IMG/VR virus record: IMGVR_UViG_3300044547_000138 | Span: 1-25,491 of that record | DNA: 25,491 nt | DNA from: a virus | Reading direction: 5' to 3' (one strand) | Shown here: piece by piece, positions 1 through 18,027 of the stretch | How positions within the stretch are numbered: position 1 is the stretch's first letter | Layout: every line of letters starts with the position of its first letter | Translations under genes and position numbers: made by a program | The notes under the pieces: generated by a model | The model's input: the letters and a program-made list of their open reading frames with translations, nothing else | What the model was told of the DNA's origin: nothing | The model's database searches: none

Positions 1-1509
1 ATTACCGCTTCTATCAATAGACTCCTCGTTGAAAGAAAATGATGCAACAGCACCTCTGCTCTTTGCACCCCTGCGATAGTTATTTAGTTTGACAATATCT
101 GCACTTGGGAAGTTTGCTCTCATTAAGAGGTTCTCAATGGCATCTCCAACATAAGCATTTTGCATAAAAAAACCGTAGCTGATTGTTCTTTCTGATAAGA
201 ACTTACCCCAGTCTTGAAGGTTTGCACTAACAGACATGTCTGTTCCAGATGACCATTCGTCAACATAGAATGTTCCATTTTTTACATATTCATAAATATC
301 AAACCGAACTTCACAGCCAGCCGTGTGTGATTTTGCAATCGTGTTGCCATACCCTCTCTCCAGAATGGTAACAACATTAGATGAATTAACCGATGCACAG
401 AGAATCGTTTCTTCTGATTGAGTATCTTTATCCAAAACTACAATAAAGCTATCTCCAGCACCACCAGCAGGAAGCACTGATCTGTCCAAAACAGTGAAGG
501 ACATATCTGCATTGGATATGTTAGATTGCAAAGTTGTAGTTAAATAAGATGCATCAATATTGTCAGATGGTGGTTTCTTAATTCTCCAGCCCGTGTATAT
601 TTCAACCTCAAGGTCTTTAACCATGTATTGACCATATGTTGAGCTATTGCTGAATATGTTAAACACTTTGGTTGTATTATCAAGATTGAGATCAACTGAT
701 GCTATTTCAGAGCCGCCCACTGGTAAGCTTGTTGAGTGAACATCTCTTGCTCTATTTACTGAGTATGAGATTACATAATCACTAATATCTGTTTCATAAA
801 TAGGAACAATCTCTTGTATGCGAGCATAATCTTGTGGATTTACCGTTGTGTAAACGGTTACTCTAATTCTAGAAACATTTTGTGACGATAGTGCCGTTGA
901 TAGTATATGATCTTGATAATACGAACCCGCTGGGATTGTTCCAACTTCGCTTAATAATGTATTTAGCGAACCATCAAATACCTGTAGCAGGTATGTTGAA
1001 ATCTGACCATAGAACTCTGATGTTACAATTCTTACCTTATTAACTTTTCTTGTTGTAAAAGTAGCTTCAACATAAGGATTTGTAGCAAACTGATAACCAT
1101 CGTATGTAGCGTGAGCATTTGCTGTACTTACACTATTTGACCACCACCCAAATTCAAGATTACTTCCAAGCTGTGTATTTGAAATATCTGACGATGTGAG
1201 TGATGGCATTGCATACCATGAACCATCTGCCCTAATGACATTACCATCAATATCTTTTGCACCAGCAACAGCCCAAGTAAAGGACTGTCTTTTTATCCCG
1301 TTCATAGCCTCTTTTGCAGGAAAGAAAAAACCTCTGCCTGGATAGGCATTGCTTGCTGGAGCATCATTGGTTGTAATAACCAAATTATCAACATGTCTAC
1401 TGTCCAACCATTTGATAATAATTTTTGGCTTAATTCTTTGAGCAGGAGATGTTATTGCTGTATTAAAAGAGCTAGACAGCTCTTTTCCATACATTCCAGA
1501 TGTTAGCAT
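1..1509 (-). CDS. Minor tail / baseplate protein, 3' end beyond window
   Basis: An open frame starts with ATG at 1509, directly after the stop of the upstream gene, and runs without a stop for 503 codons to the left edge, so the C-terminus is missing. The product begins MLTSGMYGKELSSSF. Around residues 115-235 there is a beta-rich region that reads like a discoidin-type (F5/8 C) carbohydrate-binding fold; around 240-300 (DISDYVISYSV onward) it resembles the body of minor tail proteins found after the distal tail protein in siphoviruses. The last visible residues (VASFSFNEES) resemble the first strand of a LamG/concanavalin-like domain, which would continue outside the window. Its place as the third gene after the tape measure fits a tail-tip protein. 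Domain names rest on pattern recognition, not a search; the tail role is likely, the fine function unknown. Confidence 0.75.
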   Translation of the reverse strand, partial: MLTSGMYGKELSSSFNTAITSPAQRIKPKIIIKWLDSRHVDNLVITTNDAPASNAYPGRGFFFPAKEAMNGIKRQSFTWAVAGAKDIDGNVIRADGSWYAMPSLTSSDISNTQLGSNLEFGWWSNSVSTANAHATYDGYQFATNPYVEATFTTRKVNKVRIVTSEFYGQISTYLLQVFDGSLNTLLSEVGTIPAGSYYQDHILSTALSSQNVSRIRVTVYTTVNPQDYARIQEIVPIYETDISDYVISYSVNRARDVHSTSLPVGGSEIASVDLNLDNTTKVFNIFSNSSTYGQYMVKDLEVEIYTGWRIKKPPSDNIDASYLTTTLQSNISNADMSFTVLDRSVLPAGGAGDSFIVVLDKDTQSEETILCASVNSSNVVTILERGYGNTIAKSHTAGCEVRFDIYEYVKNGTFYVDEWSSGTDMSVSANLQDWGKFLSERTISYGFFMQNAYVGDAIENLLMRANFPSADIVKLNNYRRGAKSRGAVASFSFNEESIDRSGN

Positions 1510-2574
1510 CTACACCTCCTCTAGCGTCATAGAGCAATCAAAATAGTATACATCATCTACAAGATCTCTTCTTATTAAATTTTCAGAAAAGGTTGATACA
1601 AAAACCATAACATTCTCTTCTGTATAGGGAGTAACTCCGTTCTCATCTTGATTAATAATTGTTAATGTATGAACATCTGGGTCCATAGCTACTGTCTTAA
1701 GGTAATTTCTTGACTCTCTATAGTCCACTGTCTTGCTACTATAGTTTGGAATAAAGCTCCATTTAATATTAAATGTTCTCTTGCCAGAAGAATTTGCTGC
1801 ATTATTCTTATAGTATCTAGACGAATCACCAGCCCAATTTATATTTTCAACGAATAATGGTGTTACAGAGTAATCAAATGTTCTTGTTTGATTAGTCAAT
1901 GGTTTTCCATCAAGCATTAATAGAGCCCTGATTAGCGAACTATCTGCAGTTATGTTCGCTCCAAACCTAATTGCCTCTGCACGAACATCCAGATTGTTAA
2001 GTATATTAATTCTTATTGTTGCTAAGAATATCTTGCCAGCGGTAGTGAGATTTACCTGACCAGATAGGTTTGCAACAGCAAAAGCAATTCTTGTTCCATT
2101 TGAAACCATTGATGAAAGAATTGCTATTTGAGATGCGCTATATGATGTTTTAACCATAGATGCAGACACTGATGAGTCGGAGCTCAAGACGCAAGATGAG
2201 ATTAAAATCTTTGTTCCGCTTGCTACAGAGTTAGAATCAGCGGAGAGTGAAGCACTTGCATAAGCAATCTTTGTAATATTTGTTTCAACAAGAACTTCTG
2301 CTGAAATTACAACATCACCATCCTGTCTTTCTGTTGCAATAACAACAGTTGCGCCATCAACAGCAAGATTTGCTGCTGCATATGCAATCTTGTATGCATT
2401 TGATGTGAGCTGAGAATTTGATGCAATCGTAATATTTGTAAATCTGAACTGATAAGAAGATACTGTTAGTGTTACACTACTGTTGATATCAATAGTGACA
2501 TCCGCAGCATCCGCTTGGTAGAAATCTATACCACGATTAAGTGGTTCACTAAATGAATAAAAACTATCTGACAT
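1510..2574 (-). CDS. Distal tail protein with 20-residue repeat array
   Basis: This 354-residue protein has two parts. Residues about 21-220 are a striking array of 20-residue units in exact register (41-60, 61-80 and so on to 201-220), each with an aliphatic strand such as KIAYASASLSAD followed by Ser/Asn/Asp turns, which suggests a beta-solenoid coil per unit. Residues about 225-354 form a domain also present in the next upstream gene: both have an aromatic strand, a long middle section with R.YL..VA, and a near-terminal SE.L(I/V)RRD motif before the final strand. Position after the tape measure and its small partner fits a distal-tail (Dit-like) or tail-tip protein. ATG at 2574 lies 3 bases after the preceding stop. 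The family is not named with certainty. Confidence 0.75.
   Translation of the reverse strand: MSDSFYSFSEPLNRGIDFYQADAADVTIDINSSVTLTVSSYQFRFTNITIASNSQLTSNAYKIAYAAANLAVDGATVVIATERQDGDVVISAEVLVETNITKIAYASASLSADSNSVASGTKILISSCVLSSDSSVSASMVKTSYSASQIAILSSMVSNGTRIAFAVANLSGQVNLTTAGKIFLATIRINILNNLDVRAEAIRFGANITADSSLIRALLMLDGKPLTNQTRTFDYSVTPLFVENINWAGDSSRYYKNNAANSSGKRTFNIKWSFIPNYSSKTVDYRESRNYLKTVAMDPDVHTLTIINQDENGVTPYTEENVMVFVSTFSENLIRRDLVDDVYYFDCSMTLEEV
1915..2454 (-). repeat. Nine tandem 20-residue coding repeats, probable beta-solenoid
   Basis: Residues 41-220 divide into nine 20-residue units with no insertion or deletion. The clearest begin TKIAYASASLSAD (101), TKILISSCVLSSD (121), VKTSYSASQIAIL (141) and TRIAFAVANLSGQ (161). 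The pattern is basic residue, three or four alternating hydrophobics, small residues, then polar turn. Residues 21-40 may be one further degenerate unit. The DNA copies have diverged, so the repeat is old and is held at the protein level. Confidence 0.75.
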
Positions 2575-2577
2575 TTT

Positions 2578-3000
2578 CTATTTCTCTTTAAGAGAAATCT
2601 CAACATTGTAGTAGGCACATTGGTTGGGGATATCTCTTCTCACTAGTGTTTCGCTGTATGATTCAACATAGACAACAGTATTATAAGATGGTTCTGCTGG
2701 ATCTAAGGTGATTGATAAACTTGCAGATGAAGATGTTTTGGCAACTGATAGCAGATAGTTTCTTGCCTTACGACCATCAATTGTTCTTTCTGGATGGTCT
2801 GGGAGATACTGAAAAGAAAGGGTGTATACATTCTTAGCGTTCTTAATAAACCTTTTTTTATTCCCGTTTAATAATTCAACATTTGACGCAGATGTTGCCA
2901 TTGAGCTTGAGAATAGGCGACCATGCTCGGTAATTTCTTCCCCATTAATAACTACCAAATGTGTAATACCAGATTGTTGATTTTGTATTGTAGCTACCAT
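2578..3000 (-). CDS. Dit-like tail protein, short paralogue
   Basis: A 140-residue protein whose ATG (3000) follows immediately on the tape-measure stop codon (3003-3001). It lacks signal peptide and membrane segments. From about residue 45 to the end it aligns by eye with the C-terminal domain of the following 354-residue protein: R.ARNYLLSVA matches R.SRNYLKTVA, and SYSETLVRRDIP matches TFSENLIRRDLV. The gene directly after the tape measure in siphoviruses of Gram-positive bacteria commonly encodes the distal tail protein that caps the tube and anchors the tip, so this role is inferred from position. It looks like a minimal one-domain version, with the neighbour being the same domain plus a repeat extension. 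Confidence 0.7.
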   Translation of the reverse strand: MVATIQNQQSGITHLVVINGEEITEHGRLFSSSMATSASNVELLNGNKKRFIKNAKNVYTLSFQYLPDHPERTIDGRKARNYLLSVAKTSSSASLSITLDPAEPSYNTVVYVESYSETLVRRDIPNQCAYYNVEISLKEK

Positions 3001-6000
3001 TTAGAAACCGCCCTGTATTCCATTATAACTTGTAAATGTTCTTGATTCTAAACCAGCTGCCTTTTGTTGTCTTGGGAGTACATTAACATTGTAATCCTTC
3101 ATCATTCCCTTAAACCATTCTTCTTCCCCGATAAAGGTGTCAACATTAATATTGACGGTTGATACACTTGTTGATCCACCACCACCTGCGTATGCTGGTG
3201 CTCCAGAAGGTGCTGTAAATCTTGATTGATTAATTCTTTGCATTGTTCCTAGACCCATATTTCTTACAGCATTTGCATTAACAACATACTCACCACCATG
3301 AAGGATTGCAGGAACTGGCATTGAAGGTGAACCAGGAACATAGCCACCAACTTTATATCCAGGAAGTTGCCCTATTAGAGTGTCTGTTGGCTTTCCACCA
3401 TAAAAATTCAATCTTGGGTCAACACTTCTCATAACCTCTTGCAAGAATTCCAAAGATTTTTTATGCAACAGTAGTTTGTACTGCTCATTATTTGAATCTC
3501 TTTTAATCGCCATTGATCTCTCAACAGAATCTCTAATTTGCTGAAGAGCGTTGCTGTCTAATTCGTCTGATAGAGCTTGTGAATAATTTGATGAAATTGC
3601 ATTATATGCTCCAGACAACGAACGAGCAGGTAATGATTCAGATGAGCTCAATAATGAATTAAGAACTAATCTTAGCTCTTGCATTTGATCTGGAGGCAGA
3701 TCAACAGTATCCATTGGTTTTTGCCATCTAGCTATGACATCTGGAAATTGAGAGACCATAGCAGTACCTTGCCATCCTTCTGGATCTGGTATCTCGTTCT
3801 TCATTCTAACAATATAACCACCTGTTGGTTCTTTAAAAATGTGACGCATTAAAGTTCTAAAATCACCATTTTGATCACCTAATAAAACATTAGTATTTGA
3901 AAGAGGGAAATTTCCTTCTTTTATACCAGAAGATGGATCATAGCCAAATAACATACTCATATTATTTAAGATTGGATTACCACTAGTATTATTTCCAAGA
4001 TAAGCAAACATTTGCTCAAAATCAAATCTTTGAATAAGACCAGGGCTATCATATGTTACAAGCTCTTTAAACTTAGTCATATCTCCTTTATTCTTGGCTT
4101 CAATCAATTGAAGCAAGAAATCATAGGCTCTTGCAACATACAGCCGACCTGCGCTAAAGCTATAAGCAGCACCTTTGAGCAATGGATATCCAGAAACTGG
4201 ACCGAACGAAGTCATATGCTTGAGCGCACTTGATGCTAAATCAGTTCCAATGTTTTCATCAACGCTTGCTGGTGGTTTTATTTGACTTAGACCAGGAATG
4301 GCTCCTTTATGAATCCCAATTTCAGATGGTGTCAAATTGCCGACTACTTGATCATATAGATCTGTTTTTTCTATTTTTGTCTTAACATCAAGTGGGAATT
4401 TAAAGTTTTCAAAATCCCAAATATCAGTCATATCAATAACATCTCCAGTATTTGCTGTTGATCTTCCTGTTGGATTAGGTAGCCCAATCATCTCCATAAT
4501 TGATTGGATTATTCCAGGATTATCGTTTGCCATTCTAAACGGAAGAGAGCTAGAACCTGAGGTTGTGGATGCAATTTCATTAAACTGAGTCTCAAGGAGG
4601 GAAGCGCCAGTTTTCTTTATGTCATCAATCTGGTTAAATGTAGGGAGTTTAAAATAGTTTCCTGTGCGTATTCCTTTTTGACTTTCCATTCTAAACAACA
4701 TCAAAGCTTGGAAAATTTTATTTGTTTGTTGATCTTGAATTAATTTTTTCCATGCATCAATTTCAAAATTATTAATTAATTCTTTTTCTGCTAGGAAATC
4801 AAATGGTATATCCTTTATGTCATTTATTCCACCAAGAGCATCGGCGTACTGAACTGACGCTACTCTACCGTAAGATCCCCCAGCGTATGAAACTGATTTT
4901 GCCCATTCATCAGTAGCCGTAAAAGGAGATAGATTTAAAGGTTGCATCTGAGGTGTGCCCGTCTGAACAGATACTGGATTAAACATTTTTATAGGGCTGG
5001 CTAGTGGTTTTGACATATCTGGTATTACATAATCCATAGTCTTCATACCTAGCTCTTTACCAGCAACTGATAGCCCCTTTTCTGGATCATAGAAAGTGCT
5101 AGAGGTTGGTTTCCATAGCTGCCCGATGATATCTCCATACTCACTTGGCATGAATTCTTTTAAGATGTCATTTACACCACCAAGATTTGTACTCTTTGTG
5201 TATTCAAGAAGCGTTTTTGTATTAAGTTCAAATCCAGGATATTTACTTGCTAAGTCTGGGACAACCAGAGAAGCTTGTCTGCGCATTCTTTCTGCCAAGA
5301 AAGTATTGAAATCTTCAATTAAGAAACCAGCCAGCATACCATATGCTTCACCTGTCCCAGATGTTGAATTGTATTTTGCTTCTTCTCCAATCATATCAAG
5401 CACAGTCGCAACCTTATACAATTCACCATTTGGTGAAATTGTTTCTGGGTATATTGATCTTAGGGATGCAAATGCTAGATTTCTGCGTGAATATGGAGTT
5501 GTTAATGTATTTAATATATTTGGGTCTTGATCAAGCTGTCCAGTCACCATTAGCAATAAAGCTTTTTTAAGTTCTCTTGAAGCATCAGTGCCGCCAAACA
5601 AAGCAGCCTGCATCATGTTCAACTCAGGATCTGTTGAACCTGGCTGGAATGCGCTAGTCAATCCAGGGATTCCTGTCTTTTTCTTAGTGAGAGCGTCTAA
5701 TACAAACTCTGGAGTATAGTACTTAGTCTCTTGATTTCTTGTAATTGTTTTTCTAAACTCATCCATGATCGGTGATTCTGGAGTGTACATTCCTGGATTC
5801 ATAGCTATTTGAGTTGCAAACCCAGTGCTGGTTTTATCAGTTACACCAGAACCTTTTCCTGTTTTTACAGAGAACATTGGATATTGTTTTTTAAATGTTG
5901 GATCAAACAAACTTTTTTTGCTAAATATTGCTGCGACTGAACTTGCAATAGCATCTTCAAAATCATTATTAGAAATAACACTTTCAGGATATCTCAATCT

Positions 6001-9000
6001 GAGCATTGCCTTGGTGTACTTGCCAATATATCCAAGCTGTGATTCATACAAACTTGCTTTTCTCAGAGAGAGAATATTATCAATACCCTCACCGCTTGGG
6101 AAAGCTAGGTCAACTCCAGCGTTAACAAAAAGATCATGAAATTCATTTGAAGATAACATTATTTCATTTGCAAATTCATCAAGATCAAGTCTTTGTCTAA
6201 CATTAAATATCTTAGCCATCATCTCTGATTCAACATTTGGTTTTCTAAAATTAATCTTCTCTAATAGATCTGGTATTGTAAGTTTTGCCTTCTTGGAGAA
6301 AGCTGGATTTAGCGGATCTGCAAGAGGTCTTCCTGGAAGGATTGGGTTCCCATATTTATCAAATGTTGATTTGTAGTACTTTTCTTCACTCCCAAACATG
6401 TCATAGACAGGTAACTTAGGAAGACCTGCGGTTTCTCTGTTAGCAAAAACTTCTGAAGCGGTATAATATCCTCTCTGTGTTCTTGTAAGATATTTTTGAT
6501 AAAAGCTGTCATATGCGGAAGCATATTTATCTTGAACTAATGATGTCGCACTCTTGAATATCCCTGGTTTTTTAACTACTGCACTAGAAGCAGCAGATGC
6601 ACCCATGCCTGGAACTTCATCAAGTGGAATCCAACTGAACGGATCTGATGGATCTTGAGTCATTTCAGTTAATCTAATTGAGGGAGTAGGAACTGTGCCT
6701 GCTGAGCGATTGCCAAGCAATTGTTCTAGTATATATTGTCTTCTTTGAATCAATGATGTCGCATAGTTTAATGCAGTATTGTTGTGTGGAATAACTGAAT
6801 GAGCAATCTCTGATATTCTTTCTGGTGTTATTAGTTTCAATTTCTGCGCTGAAGCAGCCATATCCTCTGGAGACATTGAGCCGAAAACTTTGGATGCATT
6901 AAGATATGATCCATGATTGAGAGGATCTGTTGTCATGCTCTTAAGCTCACCGACAATGTTGGTAAACTGTGTATGAGTATCTGGATTTGACATCTTAGGT
7001 TTTCCAGTTCCAGTGAACTTCAGTGAACCACCAGCGTCAATTCTTACTGGAACCCCAGACTCTGAATTAAGAATATTAGGGGTATCCCAACCAATAACAT
7101 CGTAGTTACCTAACCATGCATCAACTGCAAAATCTTTTTGGATCAATTTAATATAATCAGGCGATGATAACTGATCAGCAAATGAGTTTAGATTGGTTGC
7201 TTTTGGAATGATTTCTGAAATGAGTGCTGGACCATTATCAGTCATAATCGTTTTCAAATTAGTTGTTGCAACACCTAGCTCTCTATAAAGAGCATTTGCA
7301 AGCAATTCGTTTTCAATAAGTTCTTGAGTCGTTGCGTATTGACTTGTTGGCTGTTTCACATAATACTGAAGTTTGCTGGATGGGTTTTCGTAGAGTCCTC
7401 CTGGGTTAAATCCTTGCTTTTCACCAATCTTAACCAGGCTTGAGAAATCCAATTCAGGTTCTACTGAGGAGCGAACCTGGGCATTAGAAGCAGCAATAAG
7501 AGTATCAATAGAACTACTAGGACTACCAGCCATAGTGGTATCAATGAAGCTACCAGAACCAATTGACCCAAATTTAGGACTAAAGCCGCCTTGAGGCATT
7601 GTCATTCTTCCATTCAAAACATCAGCAATCAATGTAGATGGTGCTTTGCCAAATGTTTGTTTTATTGCCCCTGCTGGGTCATATAGATTGTTAAAACCGA
7701 TTAGTTCTGGAGCTATTGGTGTCTTAGCCCCTCCAGTCATTTTTGCATAAGAAGACTGTATTCTTCCTAACAGGTTTTTATTAGATAGAACAGTTGTTAA
7801 TCTATGAGCTCCAGCCTTACTTGCAGATGAACTTAGTGCTCCAGAAACCGCAGCAGCACCTCCTTCACCAAGAGTTGCTGTTAAAATAGATGCCCCTATT
7901 TTTGAAGTTGCTGCACGAGATATACCTGTTTTAACCGCACTGTTTATAAAACTTCCACCACCTAATGTTCCAATGCCGATTGAGTCCATAATTGCTTTAT
8001 CACCCGCTAGAGCAAAAGCTGTTTTTTTCCAACCTGGTATTTTTTCTCCAGACATTCTTTCATAAGTATTTAGCTCATTCATTGCTGTTTGATATGGTTT
8101 ACCAACAGTTGTTAGCTGACCATATTTACGAGGAACAAGAGGTATAGAAGCACCAGTTCCATAAAATAAATCATTTTGCCTTCTTGCGATATTATTAAGA
8201 GGATTTTGACTCTTAGAAGGTATAGCTGTTTCAATAAGCCCAGCAGCTGCGTTATATAAACTTACACCACCTACAACACCAAGTTGTTTAACAGAGTCTG
8301 CCACAGAATAAGCAAACTTACCAGTGCCTATTGCAAAATCACTTGCTTTAAAAATTGCTTTCTCAACAAGATTTAGACCTTTTTCTTTTTTCCAATTAAA
8401 CGGTTCATCTGCAACTTTTTTAATTTGCTGCTCTACCCTATCTGCAGACCCTCTTGTGTTTGAAGCTGTACCTTTCTTTCCACCTGGAACTTGACCACCC
8501 TTAATGAATTTTGGAATAAGGTTATTATTCATCTTATTCAAAGCACCTACACCGATTCTTGAAACCGCCTTCGCATTAAGAATGTATTCTCCACCATGAA
8601 GAAGTGTTGGTACACCTTCTTGTGTTGGCGCTGGGATGAAGCCCTCTGGATACCCTTGATTTTGATTTTGCGCTCTTGATGGAATTATTCCACCCTTCTT
8701 GAAGCCCTTGTAATTTCCAATAAATTCTTGATATGTAAGCGCTCTTAAATTTCTGGCGGCTCTAAGTTCATTATTTCTTGCAAAAGCATCTGCCCTACCC
8801 GTTCCAGCATATGTACCTGTAGGATTAAGAGGAGTGCTGCTACCTGGAGTTCCACCACCTGGTCCACCCGCTGCTGCATCTGCAGCGCCTGCTGCTGCAT
8901 CTTTTGCTGCATCTGCGGCTGCTTTTAGTTCAAGGTATTTATTAATTGCTGGATCAAGACTCTTTCTTAGCTTCTCCATCAGTGCTGGGTTTAGATCCAC

Positions 9001-12000
9001 CATGTTCTGGAAGCTTCTAAGGATGCTTAGGTTTCCATCAATGATTGCTTGATTGAAAACCTTTGTTGGCTCTGCTTCATCCAGTGCCTTCTTAAAGTTT
9101 GTAATGAAATCGTTCTTAACCTCATCTAAGAACTTGGTCTTCATATCCGTAAAGTTCTGAGCGAGACCAGATGTTATTACACCGAACGAATCAATTACTA
9201 ACTGCTTTCCTTCACCGAACTGTACTCCCATTCCAGCGAGCATTCCGATAGTAATACCAATTACAGTGTTTTCACTCTTATCAGATCCAAGACCAAATTT
9301 TTCTTTTGCTACTAATACAAGTTCGTCAAGATTTGTTGCAAATGGTCCAATAACCTTGTTTGGCATCTTGTCTGCAATTGTGGTTGCAAAACTTTCAAAC
9401 ATCGTACCAAATGTTGTATTCATATTGGTAGCGTTTGTTTCTGTTAATGTTTGAAGTTCTTGTAGTTGCGCCGTGTACTGCTCAACAGTAACTGGTGCAA
9501 TCTTTGTAATTAGAGCAGCAGACTCTTGGAACTTAGCAATTGATTCCTCAAAGAATAATGAAGCCGCATCTTTTGCTTCGTTAATAGCTTCCTTGAGAGC
9601 ATCAAGGTTTTCTTTTGCGAGATCCTTTGACCTTTCTTGCTCAATTGTTAAAAGGTCACTACTAAATCCTTTTTCATCAGCGCTCTGCTGAAGCTGTAGC
9701 ATTCTTGCGTCATCAACACGACCTTCATAAACAGCCAATGCGTAGTTTCTACGGAACTGCTCATTACTAAGAGCTTGGTTGTCAATAATCTTTCTTCTAT
9801 TGTTTTCGTATTCTTTCTTCTTGGTAAGTGATTCTTCTGCCTTTTCAAGCTTACCAAGTGTTTTGATTTGGACATCAAATACTTTTAGAGCAGATGTTTT
9901 TTGCTTTTCAAGAGCCTTAACGGATGCATCTACAAACTTAGTTAATGCATCTGCCATCTCTCCAGCAACATAATCTTGAAGTTTCTGAATGGCATCAACA
10001 ATGCCCTCCTCAATGGCTTTTGCAATTTTTCCAGTAGCGTCAGACTCTTCAAAGCCATCACCAAAGGAGTTACCCATGATTTCGCCAGCTTCTTCACCAG
10101 TTTCTTCTGCTGCGTCTTTAATCTTTGTATCATTACTGATTTTACCCTCGGCTGAGCTGATACCCTTAGATACACCCTTATCTAGCAGTCCAGTTGCTGC
10201 GTTAGCTACTGCATCAATGGCACCACTAGCAGCATTTTTACCCGCATCAACCAATCCATAAAGACCGTCAATAACGAAATTGATACTGTCACCAATCCAT
10301 CCAAATATTCCACCAACACCTGGAATTCTTTCAAGGAAACTAAACACTTTAGCAACAGCTTTTGGAATTAGTGTAAAGTATCCGATTATCAACTTAATTC
10401 CACCAGCGGTGATCCACACCATTCCCTTTAGCAAAGCGGCAATTAACTTAATAACAATCTTTACTGCACCAGAGGTAGCGGCAACAAGGTAATCAAAAGC
10501 TTTACCCCAGTTGCCTTGGAATATTGAAACAACAAACATTACGATATCAATAATCATGTACAGATATGGCTGAATAAAGTTTTCAACCAGCATCTTAAAC
10601 CAAGAAGCTACCTTTTGTAATACTTTTCCAACTACTTCAAATGCTTTTGAAAGACCGCCAACAGCATCTCCACCTTTCTTAGAACCACCACCGATTATTG
10701 AAAACAAATCCACAAACGGTTGGATCAGTAACAGAATGGCTTCTTTAAATATTGCCCATGCATTCTTAACTCTTAATATCGCACCAGAAGCTTTATCTTT
10801 AAAAGCACTAAAGTTTTTAACAATGATATAAACAGCAACTCCGATACCAAGCATGATTGCACCGATACCAGTTGATATGAGAGCAACCTTCATTAGCTTA
10901 AGAGCAATTGTTCCAAGCTTTGTAGCCTTCATGAAGCCAGTCATTGCGGTTGTCATTGTTCTGATTACACCAGTACCACCACCACCAGCCATCTGTTGAA
11001 TCTGCATTGCTTGAACTGCGGCTTTAGCGCCTTGTACCGACTTTGTATAAGCGGCTACTGGACCAGCGTTAAATGCAGCTGACGCTAGACCTCTAATATT
11101 TCCTGCACCAGTTGCAATCCCTCCACGGGTAGGTAGCATTCCTCTTGCAAAACCTCTTCCTGTTACGCCAGTAGCTGAAGTAAATGAATCAGCCAAACCA
11201 GGAAGCGCCGCTGTTCTTCTTGCTATTGCACCACCAATACCACCACGAGCAATTCTTAATGCTCTATCTTCAGTAATATCTACAAGACCTCTCTTTGTAG
11301 CAAGCCTTGCTCCACCAGCACCAGTTCTTGATATTCCAGCATCTGTGAGCATGGACTCTCTTAACACTGATGCTTCAGAAATTTTTCCAAGAATGTTACC
11401 ACCAACAAAACCACCCCTTGGACCAATTACACGACCACGAGCATTAAGTCGCATATTATTAGCAGAAAGCATACTTGCTTCATTTCTAAGATACTGATCT
11501 ACACCCAGTCTTCCTGTTGCTGCATGAGAAAGCCTCGCTGCTCTGTTTGCATTGATGGCACTTGTTCTAGCAGCGCCTGTAAGTCCAGTTAATGGTGTTG
11601 GGGTTGGAGCAATATTGCCAGGGAGTGTGATGTTGCGACCAACTCTTGTTGGCATACCAATCATTGATGATGCTGTACCGCCAGCAGGTGCAAAACTTGG
11701 AAGCATAGAAAGTGGTTGTTTCTTGCCAAGGAAACTGTTATACATATCTGTCATTGCCGTGGTTGCTTTCTTTGCTCCACCAGCAATTCCTACAAGACCA
11801 CCTTCAAAATTCTTTAACTTCGGTAAGAAGAATGTAGCTGCTCTTCCAAGCACACCGATAGATGATTGCATTGTTCCTAATGCAAGAATTACTGGTGCCA
11901 TTACTGCTAAGAAACCGAGGAAGCCAAGAATTAATTTGGATATTCTTTCTCTTGTTGTGTCACTTAGTGCTTGCCATTTTAGATAAAGATTGTTGATCGT

Positions 12001-13938
12001 ATCAGACAGTTTCTTTAATGATGGAGTTACATTTCTAAGTACATCTGCAGCAAAGTTTTTAAATGCAATCTTAATTCTCTGCGTAGCAACCGAAAGAGAT
12101 TTCAATGACTGCTCTAATTCCATGTTTGCTACATCAGCAGCACCAGATGCACCTGCGAGCTCAACAAGCATTGCACGACCAGCCTGTGTTTTTACCTGGC
12201 TGATTAAGTCAATGTCTTCATTCAACTTCTTCTCTTTAATCAGCTTAGCTACAGCATCTCGTGCCTCCATAGCACCTTTCTTTTCTGCTGCTGTAATACC
12301 ACCGCCTGCACCTTTGCCTTTAAACCCATCAACCAATGCTCCAACTTCAGCAGTAGCAATTCTTGCGATAACACCAATATCACTAAACTGACTTATTGTT
12401 TCTGGAAGTGCTGTACCGTTGAGTTTATTAAAGGCTCTGATGGATCCTTCAGCAACACCTGCCATTAATCTTTCTGGTGATTGATTAGCATTAACATTTT
12501 TCAAAGCAGCATCAAACTGATTCAATTGTTCAATAGCAACATACATTCTTGGACCCTGACGCTTTTCAAATATTTCAGACATCAGTTTCAGTCCAGCTTC
12601 AGTGTTTTTTCCACCTTCAACAACTTTTCCAAAAATATCAACAATAGCCTGAAGTCCTGTTAGACCAGTCTTTGTTGATTCGCTAAATGCGTTACCAGAT
12701 TTGCCAGTAACACCATATTGCTTAGAAAGTTTTGCTAGTAGTTCAACATTTTGCTTAGTAGGTACAATTGCTCTCTGAAGAGAAACTTTAATTGAGTTTG
12801 CAGAAGCACCAATATCAAAACCAGCAGCCTTCATTGGTGCAAGCAAAGCTGCTGCTTCTGTCATTGACAGACCGAAGCTCAAAGCCATACCACCAAGTTC
12901 AGGCAATGAATCAGCAAGGTCTTTCAACGAAAGTGCGGTGACATTTTCAATTGTGTTGAACATATTGAGCTGAACTGTTGCTGACGCTATAGCTTTAGAT
13001 TCACGATCAGCGGCTGATGTTACTTCATCAAATGCGCCAGCAACCTCGTATGCTCTCGTTGCATTAAAGAACAAAGCCGAGGATAGATCTTGTGCACCAG
13101 ATGCATCCATTCCTCCCAATTTTTCTGCAGCTAATGCTAATTCAGTAAGTGCTACAATATTTTCATTTGCAGTAACACCAAGTTCTGCAAAATCAACAGC
13201 CAGGCTAACTACTAAATCTTTTGCGACACCAAATCTTGCGCTTTGCTCGGTCAAAGCAGTATTTAGCTCTCTAAAGGAGTCGGTCATTTGCTTGACTCTT
13301 TTCTCCTTGTCTGGACCAAGATAATCTTTAAGCTTTGAGTTTGCTTGATCCGTTGTCATAGCAACGCCTTCAAGAACCTTTGTCAATCTTACAAATTGCT
13401 CATCAACCTTCAACAAGCTCTGGAAGCCCATTCTTGCAAATAGAAGGATTGGAGCTGTGAGGTTAATCATCAAGCTTCTACCAACGAACTGTGCGTCTTT
13501 ACCAATTCGTTGTAGCTTTAGTGATATTGAACTAAGGTCTGAACCAAATGCTCTAATTCGCAAACCTCTTAGGGTTGAATTAAATTGCTTTAATTCATTC
13601 CTGCTTTGAATTAGTTCTCTACCAAACGCTGTGGTTGTACCACCAGCTGATTGAATAGCCATAGCGTATGACTTGATGTTTGATTGAACACGCTTAGTCT
13701 CTGCGCCAAGAGCCTTCTGATTTGCAATCATCTGCTTGGCAGTCTTCGCATGATCATTCATGCTTCTGTTTGTCATTCCAAGAGCTTTGTTCACAGCTCG
13801 GCTGTGAGCATCAAGCTTGCTCATTGGTACCGTAATACCCCTTAGATTGAGGGCTAAGGCTCTAGTAGCGGCGCTAAGGTTAGTAATATCCTTAACGCCA
13901 TTAGTATGTACATTAATTATTAGATCAACATCAGACAT
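3001..13938 (-). CDS. Giant tape-measure protein with embedded kinase-like domain
   Basis: A single uninterrupted frame of 3645 residues, far longer than usual siphovirus tape measures. In order: N-terminal helical region and TP901-type core (about 1-560); hydrophobic segments at about 667-690, 1018-1040 and in the stretch 1123-1196; a charged, probably coiled-coil stretch (about 1313-1473); an Ala/Gly linker near 1670-1705; a first LHGGEY module (H1781); an insert with a HipA/PI3K-like kinase domain (about 2157-2409) and about 1100 residues I do not recognise; a second LHGGEY module (H3547); and a typical tape-measure tail with NINVDTFIGEEEWF. The role is to set tail length and pass into the cell envelope during DNA entry. 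The start lies downstream of the chaperone frames with no clear ribosome-binding site. The tape-measure call is firm; the purpose of the insert is unknown. Confidence 0.93.
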   Translation of the reverse strand: MSDVDLIINVHTNGVKDITNLSAATRALALNLRGITVPMSKLDAHSRAVNKALGMTNRSMNDHAKTAKQMIANQKALGAETKRVQSNIKSYAMAIQSAGGTTTAFGRELIQSRNELKQFNSTLRGLRIRAFGSDLSSISLKLQRIGKDAQFVGRSLMINLTAPILLFARMGFQSLLKVDEQFVRLTKVLEGVAMTTDQANSKLKDYLGPDKEKRVKQMTDSFRELNTALTEQSARFGVAKDLVVSLAVDFAELGVTANENIVALTELALAAEKLGGMDASGAQDLSSALFFNATRAYEVAGAFDEVTSAADRESKAIASATVQLNMFNTIENVTALSLKDLADSLPELGGMALSFGLSMTEAAALLAPMKAAGFDIGASANSIKVSLQRAIVPTKQNVELLAKLSKQYGVTGKSGNAFSESTKTGLTGLQAIVDIFGKVVEGGKNTEAGLKLMSEIFEKRQGPRMYVAIEQLNQFDAALKNVNANQSPERLMAGVAEGSIRAFNKLNGTALPETISQFSDIGVIARIATAEVGALVDGFKGKGAGGGITAAEKKGAMEARDAVAKLIKEKKLNEDIDLISQVKTQAGRAMLVELAGASGAADVANMELEQSLKSLSVATQRIKIAFKNFAADVLRNVTPSLKKLSDTINNLYLKWQALSDTTRERISKLILGFLGFLAVMAPVILALGTMQSSIGVLGRAATFFLPKLKNFEGGLVGIAGGAKKATTAMTDMYNSFLGKKQPLSMLPSFAPAGGTASSMIGMPTRVGRNITLPGNIAPTPTPLTGLTGAARTSAINANRAARLSHAATGRLGVDQYLRNEASMLSANNMRLNARGRVIGPRGGFVGGNILGKISEASVLRESMLTDAGISRTGAGGARLATKRGLVDITEDRALRIARGGIGGAIARRTAALPGLADSFTSATGVTGRGFARGMLPTRGGIATGAGNIRGLASAAFNAGPVAAYTKSVQGAKAAVQAMQIQQMAGGGGTGVIRTMTTAMTGFMKATKLGTIALKLMKVALISTGIGAIMLGIGVAVYIIVKNFSAFKDKASGAILRVKNAWAIFKEAILLLIQPFVDLFSIIGGGSKKGGDAVGGLSKAFEVVGKVLQKVASWFKMLVENFIQPYLYMIIDIVMFVVSIFQGNWGKAFDYLVAATSGAVKIVIKLIAALLKGMVWITAGGIKLIIGYFTLIPKAVAKVFSFLERIPGVGGIFGWIGDSINFVIDGLYGLVDAGKNAASGAIDAVANAATGLLDKGVSKGISSAEGKISNDTKIKDAAEETGEEAGEIMGNSFGDGFEESDATGKIAKAIEEGIVDAIQKLQDYVAGEMADALTKFVDASVKALEKQKTSALKVFDVQIKTLGKLEKAEESLTKKKEYENNRRKIIDNQALSNEQFRRNYALAVYEGRVDDARMLQLQQSADEKGFSSDLLTIEQERSKDLAKENLDALKEAINEAKDAASLFFEESIAKFQESAALITKIAPVTVEQYTAQLQELQTLTETNATNMNTTFGTMFESFATTIADKMPNKVIGPFATNLDELVLVAKEKFGLGSDKSENTVIGITIGMLAGMGVQFGEGKQLVIDSFGVITSGLAQNFTDMKTKFLDEVKNDFITNFKKALDEAEPTKVFNQAIIDGNLSILRSFQNMVDLNPALMEKLRKSLDPAINKYLELKAAADAAKDAAAGAADAAAGGPGGGTPGSSTPLNPTGTYAGTGRADAFARNNELRAARNLRALTYQEFIGNYKGFKKGGIIPSRAQNQNQGYPEGFIPAPTQEGVPTLLHGGEYILNAKAVSRIGVGALNKMNNNLIPKFIKGGQVPGGKKGTASNTRGSADRVEQQIKKVADEPFNWKKEKGLNLVEKAIFKASDFAIGTGKFAYSVADSVKQLGVVGGVSLYNAAAGLIETAIPSKSQNPLNNIARRQNDLFYGTGASIPLVPRKYGQLTTVGKPYQTAMNELNTYERMSGEKIPGWKKTAFALAGDKAIMDSIGIGTLGGGSFINSAVKTGISRAATSKIGASILTATLGEGGAAAVSGALSSSASKAGAHRLTTVLSNKNLLGRIQSSYAKMTGGAKTPIAPELIGFNNLYDPAGAIKQTFGKAPSTLIADVLNGRMTMPQGGFSPKFGSIGSGSFIDTTMAGSPSSSIDTLIAASNAQVRSSVEPELDFSSLVKIGEKQGFNPGGLYENPSSKLQYYVKQPTSQYATTQELIENELLANALYRELGVATTNLKTIMTDNGPALISEIIPKATNLNSFADQLSSPDYIKLIQKDFAVDAWLGNYDVIGWDTPNILNSESGVPVRIDAGGSLKFTGTGKPKMSNPDTHTQFTNIVGELKSMTTDPLNHGSYLNASKVFGSMSPEDMAASAQKLKLITPERISEIAHSVIPHNNTALNYATSLIQRRQYILEQLLGNRSAGTVPTPSIRLTEMTQDPSDPFSWIPLDEVPGMGASAASSAVVKKPGIFKSATSLVQDKYASAYDSFYQKYLTRTQRGYYTASEVFANRETAGLPKLPVYDMFGSEEKYYKSTFDKYGNPILPGRPLADPLNPAFSKKAKLTIPDLLEKINFRKPNVESEMMAKIFNVRQRLDLDEFANEIMLSSNEFHDLFVNAGVDLAFPSGEGIDNILSLRKASLYESQLGYIGKYTKAMLRLRYPESVISNNDFEDAIASSVAAIFSKKSLFDPTFKKQYPMFSVKTGKGSGVTDKTSTGFATQIAMNPGMYTPESPIMDEFRKTITRNQETKYYTPEFVLDALTKKKTGIPGLTSAFQPGSTDPELNMMQAALFGGTDASRELKKALLLMVTGQLDQDPNILNTLTTPYSRRNLAFASLRSIYPETISPNGELYKVATVLDMIGEEAKYNSTSGTGEAYGMLAGFLIEDFNTFLAERMRRQASLVVPDLASKYPGFELNTKTLLEYTKSTNLGGVNDILKEFMPSEYGDIIGQLWKPTSSTFYDPEKGLSVAGKELGMKTMDYVIPDMSKPLASPIKMFNPVSVQTGTPQMQPLNLSPFTATDEWAKSVSYAGGSYGRVASVQYADALGGINDIKDIPFDFLAEKELINNFEIDAWKKLIQDQQTNKIFQALMLFRMESQKGIRTGNYFKLPTFNQIDDIKKTGASLLETQFNEIASTTSGSSSLPFRMANDNPGIIQSIMEMIGLPNPTGRSTANTGDVIDMTDIWDFENFKFPLDVKTKIEKTDLYDQVVGNLTPSEIGIHKGAIPGLSQIKPPASVDENIGTDLASSALKHMTSFGPVSGYPLLKGAAYSFSAGRLYVARAYDFLLQLIEAKNKGDMTKFKELVTYDSPGLIQRFDFEQMFAYLGNNTSGNPILNNMSMLFGYDPSSGIKEGNFPLSNTNVLLGDQNGDFRTLMRHIFKEPTGGYIVRMKNEIPDPEGWQGTAMVSQFPDVIARWQKPMDTVDLPPDQMQELRLVLNSLLSSSESLPARSLSGAYNAISSNYSQALSDELDSNALQQIRDSVERSMAIKRDSNNEQYKLLLHKKSLEFLQEVMRSVDPRLNFYGGKPTDTLIGQLPGYKVGGYVPGSPSMPVPAILHGGEYVVNANAVRNMGLGTMQRINQSRFTAPSGAPAYAGGGGSTSVSTVNINVDTFIGEEEWFKGMMKDYNVNVLPRQQKAAGLESRTFTSYNGIQGGF
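3214..3360 (-). repeat. Second LHGGEY module of the tape measure
   Basis: Residues about 3527-3575 read GYKVGGYVPG, then VPAILHGGEYVVNANAV and GLGTMQRIN. This Gly-Gly / LHGGEY / NA.AV / G.G signature is repeated 1766 residues upstream. Modules like this usually sit once near the C-terminus of tape measures in this phage type, and the following C-terminal tail here has the usual form. Confidence 0.8.
6712..7470 (-). other. HipA/PI3K-like kinase domain inside the tape measure
   Basis: Residues about 2157-2409. A Gly-containing loop (GFNPGGLY, from G2176) leads to a strand with an ATP-site candidate Lys (YYVK, K2195). A helix follows with ENELLANALY (E2211 a candidate helix-C Glu). Then come DAWLGNYDVIGWDTPNIL with D2280 and N2288 as catalytic-loop candidates, and RIDAGG with D2301 as the metal-binding Asp. 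The C-terminal lobe ends with a helix around RRQYILEQLL. This order matches a kinase-like family I know from large bacterial toxins and some phage head proteins (NPGG.Y, YVK, DAWL.N.D, RID.GG). All visible key residues are present, so activity is plausible. The family call comes from memory of the pattern; substrate is unknown. Confidence 0.72.
8527..8709 (-). repeat. First LHGGEY module of the tape measure
   Basis: Residues about 1744-1804: FKKGGIIPS, a proline/Gln-rich spacer, then VPTLLHGGEYILNAKAV and GVGALNKMN. It matches the C-terminal module in order and spacing of key residues, with a longer spacer before VP. It marks where a normal-sized tape measure would be expected to end, about 1800 residues in. 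Confidence 0.75.
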
Positions 13939-13986
13939 GTTTGTACCAACAAATATTATCCCATTTTTTTAGATAATCAGCAATCA

Positions 13987-14316
13987 TTAATCTGCTTGAT
14001 ATCCCAATGGAATGCCGAAGTTCATTACTTCAAATGGTCTCATTGGCTCATCTGGCACTCTATCTTCTGGCGAGTACCAGTCATCTTCAAAGTCAACATC
14101 AGCGCCTTGAGCCAAGGCGAGCGCTTTGATATTCTTACTGAATTCATTAGTACAAGCTCGGTACAATAGAAACATCTCATGAAGGATTAGAGATTCTTCT
14201 AATTCCTCTAGATTTTTCCATGCACCGACCTGTACAAATATTTCTGATTCATATTTGAGAAGGGGAATCTCATTCCATGACAAGGGTTCACCACCCTCGC
14301 CATCCCCGTTTATTGG
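13987..14316 (-). CDS. Tail-assembly chaperone, frameshifted C-terminal part (GT-like)
   Basis: This frame has no good start of its own: the only candidate near its beginning is a TTG at 14283 with no ribosome-binding site. It is open back to 14325 and is entered by -1 frameshifting at CCCAAAC (14322-14316), which places the ribosome exactly in this frame. The fused extension begins PINGDGEGGEPLSWNEI and runs 109 residues, giving a chaperone of about 210 residues, with a Trp-rich, acidic C-terminal part (DFEDDWYSPEDRVPDE). In lambda and many other siphoviruses the equivalent G-T fusion binds the tape measure and recruits major tail protein. Position immediately before the tape measure agrees. 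The frameshift is deduced from sequence only. Confidence 0.85.
   Translation of the reverse strand, partial: PINGDGEGGEPLSWNEIPLLKYESEIFVQVGAWKNLEELEESLILHEMFLLYRACTNEFSKNIKALALAQGADVDFEDDWYSPEDRVPDEPMRPFEVMNFGIPLGYQAD
14281..14299 (-). promoter_or_regulatory. Stem-loop downstream of the frameshift site
   Basis: On the coding strand CGAGGGT (14299-14293) pairs with ACCCTTG (14287-14281) around the loop GGTGA: seven pairs, one of them G-U. It begins 16 bases after the slippery heptamer, farther than the usual 5-9. It could act as a frameshift stimulator, but this is weaker than the heptamer itself. Confidence 0.45.
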
Positions 14317-14618
14317 TTTGGGTCGTTACCCATTGCTGCAGCCATTACTTCACCAAATGTTCTAAGGTCAAGAATGTCTTCAAGCAAATCACGATTTGCA
14401 GCCAACTCTGGATCAGCCTTTCTCAGTGCGATTGAGGCTGCTGCGATCATCTTATCAATGTCCTCATCAGTCATTCCAGCTTCGTCATTGGACTTCATAT
14501 CGTTTGCAACCTTCATGAATTCACGAAGGTGCTTAATTGTCAAAGGCTTTACAATTCTCTTCTTTCCATCAGAAAATGTAATCTCAGTACCCTTAAACAG
14601 ATCAGTATTTGTTGCCAT
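14310..14618 (-). CDS. Tail-assembly chaperone, zero-frame product (G-like)
   Basis: A 102-residue acidic, helical protein starting at ATG 14618 with a clear AAGGAG ribosome-binding site. It opens with a small beta part (EITFSDGKKRIVKPLTIKHL) and continues with helices rich in Asp/Glu, the pattern of chaperones that coat the tape measure before tail assembly. It ends with NDPNQ and TAA; the slippery site CCCAAAC spans its last codons, so a minority of ribosomes should continue into the -1 frame. It lies between the major tail protein and tape measure, the standard place. Family assignment is mainly from position, size, composition and the frameshift signal, which together are strong. Confidence 0.85.
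   Translation of the reverse strand: MATNTDLFKGTEITFSDGKKRIVKPLTIKHLREFMKVANDMKSNDEAGMTDEDIDKMIAAASIALRKADPELAANRDLLEDILDLRTFGEVMAAAMGNDPNQ
14316..14322 (-). promoter_or_regulatory. -1 programmed frameshift slippery site CCCAAAC
   Basis: In the zero frame the codons are CCA AAC preceded by C, so the heptamer fits X XXY YYZ exactly. After slipping, the tRNAs re-pair on CCC and AAA. The next codon, CCA at 14316, belongs to the downstream chaperone frame, and the zero frame ends two codons later with TAA at 14312-14310. Confidence 0.85.
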
Positions 14619-14659
14619 TTTTTATGTGCTCCTTGTTTTATAATAATGGGAATAATGCA

Positions 14660-14704
14660 AAAACTCCCAAGTTTCAGTATATCATACCGACTCTCAGGAG
14701 TTTT
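14660..14704 (-). terminator. Inverted repeat after major tail protein gene, possible attenuator
   Basis: Reading in the direction of transcription, AAAACTCC (14704-14697) is matched by GGAGTTTT (14667-14660), a perfect 8-pair stem with a 29-base loop, followed by a short T run. It lies in the 112-base gap between the major tail protein and chaperone genes, one of the longest gaps in the window. A weak terminator here would favour abundant tail-tube protein over the downstream genes. The long loop and short T tract lower confidence. Confidence 0.4.
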
Positions 14705-14730
14705 CGCTTAGTACAAACTTTTGGTTTTAA

Positions 14731-15309
14731 TTAGATTTGGTCAATGATCTTGCCATATTCGTAACCAGTGTCACCGACTACTGGAAGAACACGGAACGAA
14801 ACTTCAAAAACTGAAGCTTCTGCTCTCTTCATTGATAGCATTGAAGTGGTCATTGACACTGCTCGCTTAGTGTTAAACTTGCGTGTCTTTGTCACTGATG
14901 CTGTTGAACCTGGGGCATATCCAGTTACCTGGAGTGCGTACTCAAATGGGTACACGCTCTGTGAACCGAACAACAAGGTCTTGGTGTTTGCGCCATCATT
15001 GTTTGCTTTGATGTCATCTCCACCAGTTGTATTGTCGTAGCTCCATGCTGTTGCAAGGTTGTTAAGAGTTCCTTCTGCGAGGGTTGTCTTAACCATTACT
15101 TTCACCTTTGACTGAATGACCTTTGCTGCGTCACCGTACTGGTCAATTTCAATGTCAACCATGTCTGGTTCCCACGAAATTTCAAGACCACCTTGGGTTG
15201 CGCCCACATCTGTCAAGCTATCAAAATCTGAGTTTGTCATCGTGATGTTGGAAACACCAGTTTTTACTGTTGCTTCACCAACTACGATATTGGAAGTTGT
15301 TACTGCCAT
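14731..15309 (-). CDS. Major tail protein (tail tube subunit)
   Basis: A 192-residue soluble, beta-rich protein starting at ATG 15309 behind a strong AGGAGG site. It begins MAVTTSNIVVGEATVKTGV and contains the phrase GGLEISWEPDMVDIEIDQYG (residues about 40-60), which matches tail-tube proteins in which a strand and loop contact the neighbouring subunit; later segments are beta strands ending with a symmetrical FEVSFRVLP strand. Size, strong translation signal, and position before the chaperones and tape measure all fit. The gene is followed by a possible transcription attenuator, consistent with a need for many copies. There is no extra Ig-like domain at the C-terminus. Confidence 0.85.
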   Translation of the reverse strand: MAVTTSNIVVGEATVKTGVSNITMTNSDFDSLTDVGATQGGLEISWEPDMVDIEIDQYGDAAKVIQSKVKVMVKTTLAEGTLNNLATAWSYDNTTGGDDIKANNDGANTKTLLFGSQSVYPFEYALQVTGYAPGSTASVTKTRKFNTKRAVSMTTSMLSMKRAEASVFEVSFRVLPVVGDTGYEYGKIIDQI

Positions 15310-15324
15310 TTTACTATCCTCCTG

Positions 15325-15519
15325 TTATTCAAGGACAAATATTTTCTTGCCCTTGCGATCTCGCCATTTAGAAATCTTTACGGCGTGATCTAATTTTATT
15401 TCATCTGAGCGGCGACCTATTCCTACGCCTTTTTGCCACTCAAACTCATAAACCTCTTTACCTAGTTTCACGGAAAACCCTGGGGTCTTGCCGATGTATG
15501 TAATTACATTATACTTCAT
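15325..15519 (-). CDS. Small basic protein of the neck/tail module, unknown function
   Basis: A 64-residue protein, strongly basic, beta-rich, with no membrane segment (MKYNVITYIGKT...). It sits between the tail terminator and major tail protein genes. Small genes of similar size and predicted fold occur at this place in many siphoviruses of Gram-positive hosts, but their role is not established. The ATG at 15519 has only a weak ribosome-binding site. I do not recognise a family; a structural or assembly role is inferred only from its position. Confidence 0.6.
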   Translation of the reverse strand: MKYNVITYIGKTPGFSVKLGKEVYEFEWQKGVGIGRRSDEIKLDHAVKISKWRDRKGKKIFVLE

Positions 15520-15544
15520 ATACTTTTATGATACCACAAATATA

Positions 15545-15955
15545 TCAGAGGCTCACTGAGAACAGCGAGAAATCAAGGTCCATTTGGTACCAACCTTCTT
15601 TTTCAATAGGCTCTGACAAAGAACTTGATACCAGTTGTGAGCTAAGAACTCTTACGCTTGAACTGGCAACATTCCCTTGAATCTGATCCCCTTCTCCAAG
15701 GAGCTTGATTAATCTTTCTGAGATTTGAAATAACCTGTCAACATCCGAATCATAAATAGAGTATCTAATTGCGTCATACCTGTTCCAGTATGACTCAACA
15801 GATGGGATATGTGGATTGTAATAGTAAATTACAAAAGGAGCTGTTTCTGTGCTGTAACCAATTACTGGGAAAAAATTCATAACTTTCCCAGCAATATTAG
15901 CCAGAGTGGTATCTGCCTTAAGGTAAGTGTTTATAGAATAGACGCTAATTGGCAT
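15545..15955 (-). CDS. Tail terminator protein (probable)
   Basis: A 136-residue protein starting at ATG 15955, three bases after the stop of the previous gene. It has an N-terminal helix (NTYLKADTTL), a PFVIYYYNPHIPS strand, a helical middle (DRLFQISERLIKLLG) and final strands (YQMDLDFSLFSVSL). This alpha/beta layout, with a helix beside a sheet and a strand-rich C-terminus ending in a hydrophobic alternation, is that of tail terminators, the ring that stops tail-tube growth and joins the tail to the neck. Order in the operon (adaptor, closure, completion, terminator, major tail protein) supports it. Identification is by fold pattern and place, not by a decisive motif. Confidence 0.68.
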   Translation of the reverse strand: MPISVYSINTYLKADTTLANIAGKVMNFFPVIGYSTETAPFVIYYYNPHIPSVESYWNRYDAIRYSIYDSDVDRLFQISERLIKLLGEGDQIQGNVASSSVRVLSSQLVSSSLSEPIEKEGWYQMDLDFSLFSVSL

Positions 15956-15958
15956 AAA

Positions 15959-16489
15959 CTACCTTACCACATCCACCCCGCCAGCACCTCTTGCGGTAAA
16001 ACCTTGTCTAATAAATTCTTGTTTAAGGTTTTTAATAATAACTTGTTTTGCAATCTCTCTAATTTCTTTTCTTTTTGAAGGAATCGCTACTTTTCTAACA
16101 GCTCTATAGAACTCCGAATAGCCTTGTGCAACAGAGGCTGATCTTACTTTCATAATCCCATTTCCTTTTCCTCTGATTACACCACCACCTTTTTTACCAG
16201 TTAAAAGAATTGCAGATCCGATCTGGATGTTTCCACCATCTTTTCTAAATGACCCTTTTGGATATGGTTTTACTTTTAAAGTCATGCCTGTTGGACCAAA
16301 TGGAATGATTTCGTATTGTAAATACTTTGCAGCCCTTCCTAGATCGGCTGTTGCCATCTTCATGTCACGCTTTGACCTCATCATTGCCTGCACTTGTGCA
16401 TGCTGAACTCGGACTGGTAGGACTGAATAGTAAATAGCAGCCATCTCTGTTTGAATCAAAGCTGACTTGTTAACCCGAATACTAAGCAT
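15959..16489 (-). CDS. Tail-completion / neck protein, HK97 gp10-like (probable)
   Basis: A 176-residue very basic protein. Its ATG (16489) lies 8 bases inside the end of the upstream gene, a sign of coupled translation. The N-terminal half is helical (RVQHAQVQAMMRSKRDMKMA), the middle holds a Gly-rich basic loop (TGKKGGGVIRGKGNG) and the C-terminal half has a long basic helix (REIAKQVIIKNLKQEFIRQG). HK97 gp10-type proteins have comparable length, basic charge and place between head-closure and tail-terminator genes. No catalytic motif is visible. The name is inferred from order and composition. Confidence 0.6.
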   Translation of the reverse strand: MLSIRVNKSALIQTEMAAIYYSVLPVRVQHAQVQAMMRSKRDMKMATADLGRAAKYLQYEIIPFGPTGMTLKVKPYPKGSFRKDGGNIQIGSAILLTGKKGGGVIRGKGNGIMKVRSASVAQGYSEFYRAVRKVAIPSKRKEIREIAKQVIIKNLKQEFIRQGFTARGAGGVDVVR

Positions 16490-16856
16490 TTTCCGTAATC
16501 TTCCTACAGGTTAAAAGAATCATTCTAACCTTACCGTTATAACCAGTTCTTTTATCAATGTTTACAATCTCTACTGGATAATCAACTATTGAATTACCGT
16601 AGCGGTCAACTACATTTTGAATTTTATTGCTATAGTTTGCATACTGAGCATCTTTGTGTGAAATAAAAAATTCAACCTCGTCAATATTTGCAACATACGG
16701 ATATGTTCTTCTTTCAGAAGACATTGACTGATACAGGGCTTTAATTGTTCCCGACATTGTGTATGATGTTGTTTGTTGCCCAGCAGCATTAACAGATGTT
16801 GTCTTAGTGTAGACATCCATTTTGTGCGGAAGGTTTATAAAAACACCGTTAGACAT
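16482..16856 (-). CDS. Head-closure (stopper) protein
   Basis: A 124-residue beta-rich protein starting with ATG 16856 directly after the stop of the adaptor gene. The strands MDVYTKTTSVNAAGQQTTSY, GTIKALYQSMS and DEVEFFISHKDAQY, with a final KVRMILLTCRKI strand, follow the pattern of SPP1 gp16-like head-tail joining proteins, a small barrel that seals the portal-adaptor channel before the tail docks. It overlaps the next gene by 8 bases. Position between adaptor and tail-completion genes agrees. Confidence 0.72.
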   Translation of the reverse strand: MSNGVFINLPHKMDVYTKTTSVNAAGQQTTSYTMSGTIKALYQSMSSERRTYPYVANIDEVEFFISHKDAQYANYSNKIQNVVDRYGNSIVDYPVEIVNIDKRTGYNGKVRMILLTCRKITENA

Positions 16857-17786: not shown

Positions 17787-17792
17787 AATACA

Positions 17793-17812: not shown

Positions 17813-17821
17813 TTTCAGCCT

Positions 17822-18022: not shown

Positions 18023-18027
18023 AATTT

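Follow-up and report, generated by a model that had tools for sequence, protein, structure and literature searches.

A 25,491-nucleotide (nt) stretch of viral DNA (positions 1 to 25,491 of IMG/VR virus record IMGVR_UViG_3300044547_000138; here called the window) encodes a tail tape measure protein that, we are nearly certain, has a kinase-fold domain within it. The domain lies in a region flanked by two LHGGEY motifs, the payload slot, which is very probably exchangeable between related phages. We also think it likely, with a good deal less assurance, that the domain is an active kinase delivered to the host as an injected, exchangeable effector; here, catalysis, entry into the cell, the target, and the benefit to the phage are what we infer. 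The gene in question is the following.

3001-13938, minus strand: tape measure protein gene (3645 amino acids [aa]); carries the kinase domain; assigned from PHROG, Pfam, and similarity to annotated tape measures.

The N-terminal part of the protein matched PHROG tape measure families (6.6e-27, 3.1e-19, and 1.7e-10) and Pfam PhageMin_Tail (3.8e-7, slightly under the gathering score), and the same part is distantly similar to proteins annotated as tape measures in Gordonia and Rhodococcus phages. Adjoining window genes matched tail fiber and virion structural PHROG families, the remaining neighbors having no assignment, so that the protein has both a tape measure profile match and a place in a tail/virion gene block. 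An earlier note on this DNA had described a HipA/PI3K-like kinase domain built into a tape measure at 6712-7470; these coordinates correspond exactly to residues 2157-2409, all of the motifs quoted there are present, and the PHROG and Pfam matches bear out the tape measure assignment, to which we add that the part of the protein around the domain can be exchanged. The evidence comes from metagenomic contigs only, and a chimeric contig could in principle have joined the two parts. However, the same 3645-aa open reading frame (ORF) occurs in four other contigs from different metagenomes, with a related version in a fifth, the reading frame is open throughout, and a second family has the same arrangement. 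Because the ORF recurs in several metagenomes, we rejected chimeric assembly, which we regard as extremely improbable.

The kinase-fold domain and its key residues are located as follows.

6700-7482, minus strand: kinase-fold domain, residues 2153-2413 (homologues, alignments A1 and A2, model plus fold search).
7396-7413, minus strand: glycine-rich loop GFNPGG, residues 2176-2181 (Ser changed to Phe at 2177 in the window lineage).
7354-7356, minus strand: K2195, strand 3 lysine (45/45 sequences; strand 53-57 of the model).
7306-7308, minus strand: E2211, helix C-type glutamate (45/45; helix 66-82 of the model).
7075-7101, minus strand: catalytic loop, D2280 to N2288 (both residues 45/45).
7036-7038, minus strand: D2301, metal-binding aspartate of RIDAGG (45/45).

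The domain is not a chance resemblance, because relatives were found in phage records, viral contigs, and bacterial genomes. By tblastn, the 261-aa domain matched 19 phage records (best match, 1e-34 with 38% identity); an alignment search found relatives encoded in 345 viral contig stretches; and bacterial genomes contained 59 loci with relatives (Actinomycetota, Pseudomonadota, and others). Among the 45 aligned sequences, K2195, E2211, D2273, N2278, D2280, N2288, R2299, and D2301 were invariant, so none of the residues that the earlier note had named (K2195, E2211, D2280, N2288, and D2301) was substituted. An AlphaFold2 model of the domain (predicted local distance difference test [pLDDT], 86.4; predicted template modeling score [pTM], 0.84) has the canonical order of elements, with the glycine loop between two strands, the Lys in the third strand, the Glu in the next helix, and two catalytic loops, and keeps a helical C-terminal part (helices 193-274). 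In a Foldseek search of the PDB, the top match was CtkA, a HipA-like kinase (best chain, E of 1.5e-5; another chain, template modeling score up to 0.55), followed by many protein kinases and PI4KIIIB. This is in keeping with the predicted kinase fold, and the structural check named in the earlier note thus comes out in favor of a kinase domain; against a viral library, large phage proteins came out on top (best, 4.0e-16).

Direct sequence searches of Pfam, NCBIfam, and the PDB with the window domain returned nothing significant. None of the 45 members reached the Pfam cutoff for HipA_C or HipA_2, the best value being 0.00066 (HipA_C), and the window sequence gave none. The nearest structure, CtkA of Helicobacter pylori (3akk and 3akl), shares the predicted fold and the order of glycine loop, Lys, Glu, Asp-Asn loop, and Asp, but is only 13 to 15% identical, and the window domain differs from HipA-like kinases in falling short of the Pfam HipA cutoffs and in lying inside a tape measure. 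Of the earlier HipA/PI3K-like label, the fold and the residue order therefore stand, whereas a Pfam HipA match at a curated cutoff does not, and we do not claim membership in HipA proper. Judging from the model, the domain would work like a HipA/PI3K-type kinase, without being filed as HipA. A profile search also placed the glycine loop, Lys, and Glu in register with those of the Legionella "Effector protein B" (PDB 4jw1), but that match is not significant by sequence (E, 0.28), and the Legionella effector acts on eukaryotic cells.

Five near-invariant, noncatalytic positions are altered in the window lineage and only there: S2177F in the glycine-rich loop, G2189K, D2287P, R2309T, and A2310G. 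Together with the long branch of the window kinase in our tree, these changes would fit a pseudokinase, a domain that has kept its fold but lost its activity and now aids binding or folding, docking the tape measure to a protein of the tail or of the host. We consider this unlikely: the catalytic residues are all intact (45/45), at four of the five altered sites the copy in the other tape measure group (L069) retains Ser, Gly, Asp, and Arg, and the ratio of nonsynonymous to synonymous substitution rates (dN/dS) between the window kinase and that of its relative L099 is about 0.25, which, on few differences, suggests that the domain is under purifying selection. The five substitutions could possibly reflect reduced or shifted activity, or a drifted or inactive kinase.

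Most other carriers of the domain are large proteins with no match to the window tape measure outside it. Some are portal adjacent (in phages DSL-LC01, Forza, and Phendrix), some are annotated as ADP-ribosyltransferases, and some large phage carriers are annotated as particle associated. Tape measures with the kinase fall into two groups, the window's own (window, L003, and L016 to L019) and L069 to L072. Among kinase carriers, the LHGGEY motif occurs only in these tape measure groups and is paired wherever the protein is complete. All four tape measure copies of the kinase in the tree form one clade (Shimodaira-Hasegawa-like approximate likelihood ratio test [SH-aLRT], 97); the branches are long and are compatible with one capture or with two. 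Elsewhere, one large protein in each of L081, L093, and L073 has two copies of the domain, and the bacterial relatives include L181 to L183 (Endozoicomonas), L191, L195, and L202 (Pseudomonas), and L206 to L213 (mostly Gastranaerophilales).

Comparison of the window with relatives, collected with the tape measure N terminus as the query, defined the region in which the kinase lies.

3350-8420, minus strand: payload slot, about residues 1840-3530 (~1,700 residues); unrelated sequence in L098 and L100 by protein and DNA comparison.
8575-8601, minus strand: first flanking motif, LHGGEYILN, residues 1780-1788.
3277-3303, minus strand: second flanking motif, LHGGEYVVN, residues 3546-3554.
3400-6612, minus strand: payload remainder after the kinase (about residues 2440-3515); no recognized domain and no recognizable relative outside the window's phage group.

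The L098 protein is 98.6% identical to the window protein over the first 500 residues, yet the two align only at residues 1-1859 and 3524-3645, and the 1,695 residues in the slot of L098 are unrelated to the window payload. The DNA agrees, with 96.3% identity over window positions 8421-18030, 93.4% over 2532-3349, and sharp edges, and L100 has the same pattern in both protein and DNA. The earlier note had proposed looking for the same insertion in related tape measures; the kinase does recur in the second group, L069 to L072, but the slots of the close relatives L098 and L100 hold other sequence.

Motifs and lengths were counted in 58 complete relatives, near-copies included. Two motifs were present in 24 of these, with total lengths of 2,586 to 3,781 residues; the first motif lay at 1,780 to 1,885 (mean, 1,827; standard deviation, 38), 702 to 1,884 residues separated the motifs, and 99 to 102 residues followed the second. 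The position of the first motif is thus near constant and the distance between motifs variable, indicating that the ruler part is nearly constant in length while the payload varies. By the pattern used, another 25 relatives (1,797 to 2,612 residues) had one motif, and in these the payload was mostly absent; the remaining 9, first counted as motif free, have the motif with Ser replacing Asn. At the C termini of L120 to L123 and L129 to L131, a degenerate second motif directly follows the first with no payload between them (sequences shown for L120 and L129), and in L120 and L129 this worn motif may possibly mark an emptied slot.

Tape measures are made late and are packed into tails, and the kinase might for this reason do its work in the particle or in the cell that produces it, where tail or capsid proteins could, for instance, be modified while they assemble, rather than as an injected effector. 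However, close relatives with conserved adjoining genes hold unrelated domains in the slot, and single-motif relatives manage without a payload; assembly therefore does not need the kinase, and we judge a role of this kind to be distinctly unlikely.

The slots of other relatives point to further payload types. The slot of L106 and L107 holds about 530 residues ending in HEMGHGFNLDH...SIMDY, a metzincin-type signature (HExxHxxNxxH plus a SIM-x-Y Met-turn). L114, at 42% identity, retains the key residues of this signature. Pfam support is weak; from these motifs, the payload is likely a metzincin-type zinc protease. The coordinates are as follows.

L106, 11458-13338; L107, 10236-12116; L114, 15710-17731: metzincin-type payloads.

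A further payload family is common to L115 (7767-8933), L117, L119, L125, L134, and L160 (alignments A4 and A5) and is found again, flanked by two motifs, in many additional contigs, including L240 to L249. It has invariant Arg, His, Asn, and Asp residues and a TP pair, and a model of the A5 family (pLDDT, 82; pTM, 0.81) had no fold match in the PDB (best E, 0.28); on the basis of the model, it could possibly be a new effector fold. An ADP-ribosyltransferase-like payload is not claimed, as the candidates were a stretch of L155 read by eye and a weak Pfam match in L134 (0.047), neither with a PDB match.

Some payloads contain glycine zipper or transglycosylase-like regions, and transglycosylase-like domains are present in two payload types, those of L154 and L155. 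Since wall-degrading domains in tape measures are already established, payloads might generally act at the cell envelope by degrading the wall, or might simply fill the tail tip in an adhesive or structural role, with the kinase incidental. But a kinase requires ATP, which is cytoplasmic, and the kinase and metzincin payloads have no recognized wall-degrading domain; we rate this explanation slightly below a kinase acting during assembly.

Signs of recombination extend into the payloads themselves. L114 and L119 have their first 123 payload residues in common at 99% identity and then differ, and the payloads of L098 and L100 are 88% identical over 333 residues and about 25% alike beyond that. 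In the window, a tract around the kinase stands out.

6440-7611, minus strand: kinase tract, mostly 92 to 100% identical in DNA to L099, versus about 60% to the left.

The number of synonymous substitutions per site (dS) between the window and L099 was 0.046 in the kinase, compared with 0.30 to 0.38 in the ruler and mostly 0.46 to 0.95 in the rest of the payload. We read this pattern as a probable recent exchange of the kinase module by recombination.

WhiB proteins are typical of Actinomycetota and their phages. They were encoded in 12 of 13 larger contigs of relatives, the contig without WhiB being a 41-kb fragment and the only one tested from the window's own group; the host of the window phage is thus probably an actinobacterium. 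The contigs with WhiB-family genes include those of L098, L114, L140, L150, and L156, and most have two such genes.

Delivery of the window payload is suggested by two published observations: the lambda tape measure associates with inner membrane components in injection (PMC13190303), and a glycine zipper is common to the type VI secretion system (T6SS) effector Tde1 and some tape measures (PMC10240207). We hypothesize that the tape measure has three sections, a constant ruler some 1,800 residues long, an LHGGEY-flanked payload slot, and a constant C-terminal tail (about 100 residues), the slot in the window lineage holding the kinase-fold domain and about 1,000 residues with no recognized domain. 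As a section of the tape measure, the payload would be built into the virion and would exit the tail together with the rest of the protein during DNA ejection; the kinase domain would then phosphorylate some molecule of the host just as infection begins, ahead of phage gene expression. Injected phage effectors and HipA, taken as analogues, make host defense or translation factors our best guess for the targets. More broadly, the balance of evidence seems to us to tip toward tape measures in a large group of actinobacterial phages being dedicated injection vehicles, in which the paired-LHGGEY slot takes interchangeable effector cassettes (kinase, metzincin-type protease, and domains of other kinds). 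These cassettes would precede the genome into the host, which would make the system an equivalent of polymorphic toxins carried by the virion.

Besides the five substitutions, other points weigh against delivery of an active kinase to such a host. The kinase is carried by only two tape measure groups, the hosts are deduced from WhiB genes of relatives, and the tail tube may be too narrow for a folded kinase, which would then have to pass through it unfolded or be housed at the tip of the tail.

The proposed system resembles several known ones. Polyvalent proteins (Iyer et al. 2017, PMC5512222) are multidomain phage proteins presumed to accompany the DNA into the host; as in these, a single class of carrier holds kinase, protease, and transferase modules, and most relatives of the window kinase reside in large phage proteins. 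The carrier here, in contrast, is a tape measure, and the text of PMC5512222 has no mention of tape measures; the kinase family of polyvalent proteins is described there as different and C-terminally truncated, and the helical C-terminal part kept in our model may speak against such a truncation in the window kinase. With polymorphic toxin systems (PMC3482391) it shares a constant delivery part, exchangeable effector cassettes, and nested swaps, but the window payload is internal and closed by a constant C-terminal tail. No payload-specific immunity gene was seen directly downstream, since the DNA there (window positions 1-3363, aligning at about 74% to L102 and L106) is conserved in these relatives with other payloads. 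Extra domains in the C-terminal half are likewise a feature of tape measures that carry a wall-degrading domain or a glycine zipper (for the latter, PMC10240207), and some payloads described here have such regions; kinase and protease payloads and exchange of the whole slot between near-identical phages set the present case apart. The earlier note's statement that no described tape measure has this domain agrees with our search of an open-access library, in which we found no tape measure with a kinase, an ADP-ribosyltransferase, or an exchangeable payload (most subscription papers and all preprints were outside its scope). The novelty lies less in the enzyme fold than in its carrier and in the slot.

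If this reading is correct, the tape measure would be an exchangeable protein delivery arm besides a ruler and DNA conduit, and phages could swap first-strike effectors without rebuilding the tail. New phage effectors could be recognized by a simple signature, two LHGGEY motifs in a gene 2 to 5.6 kb longer than the payload-free form. There would also be a testable link among tail ejection, host takeover, and polymorphic toxins, with a kinase so delivered being an unusual takeover tool.

Two other features of the window bear on tape measures.

10333-11934, minus strand: residues 669-1202 of the ruler part, with hydrophobic segments by hydropathy scan; a possible membrane-spanning region.
23583-24425, minus strand: endolysin-like protein.

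The top PHROG match of the endolysin-like protein is a tape measure family (1.5e-40), which indicates that the same lytic domain is fused to tape measures elsewhere.
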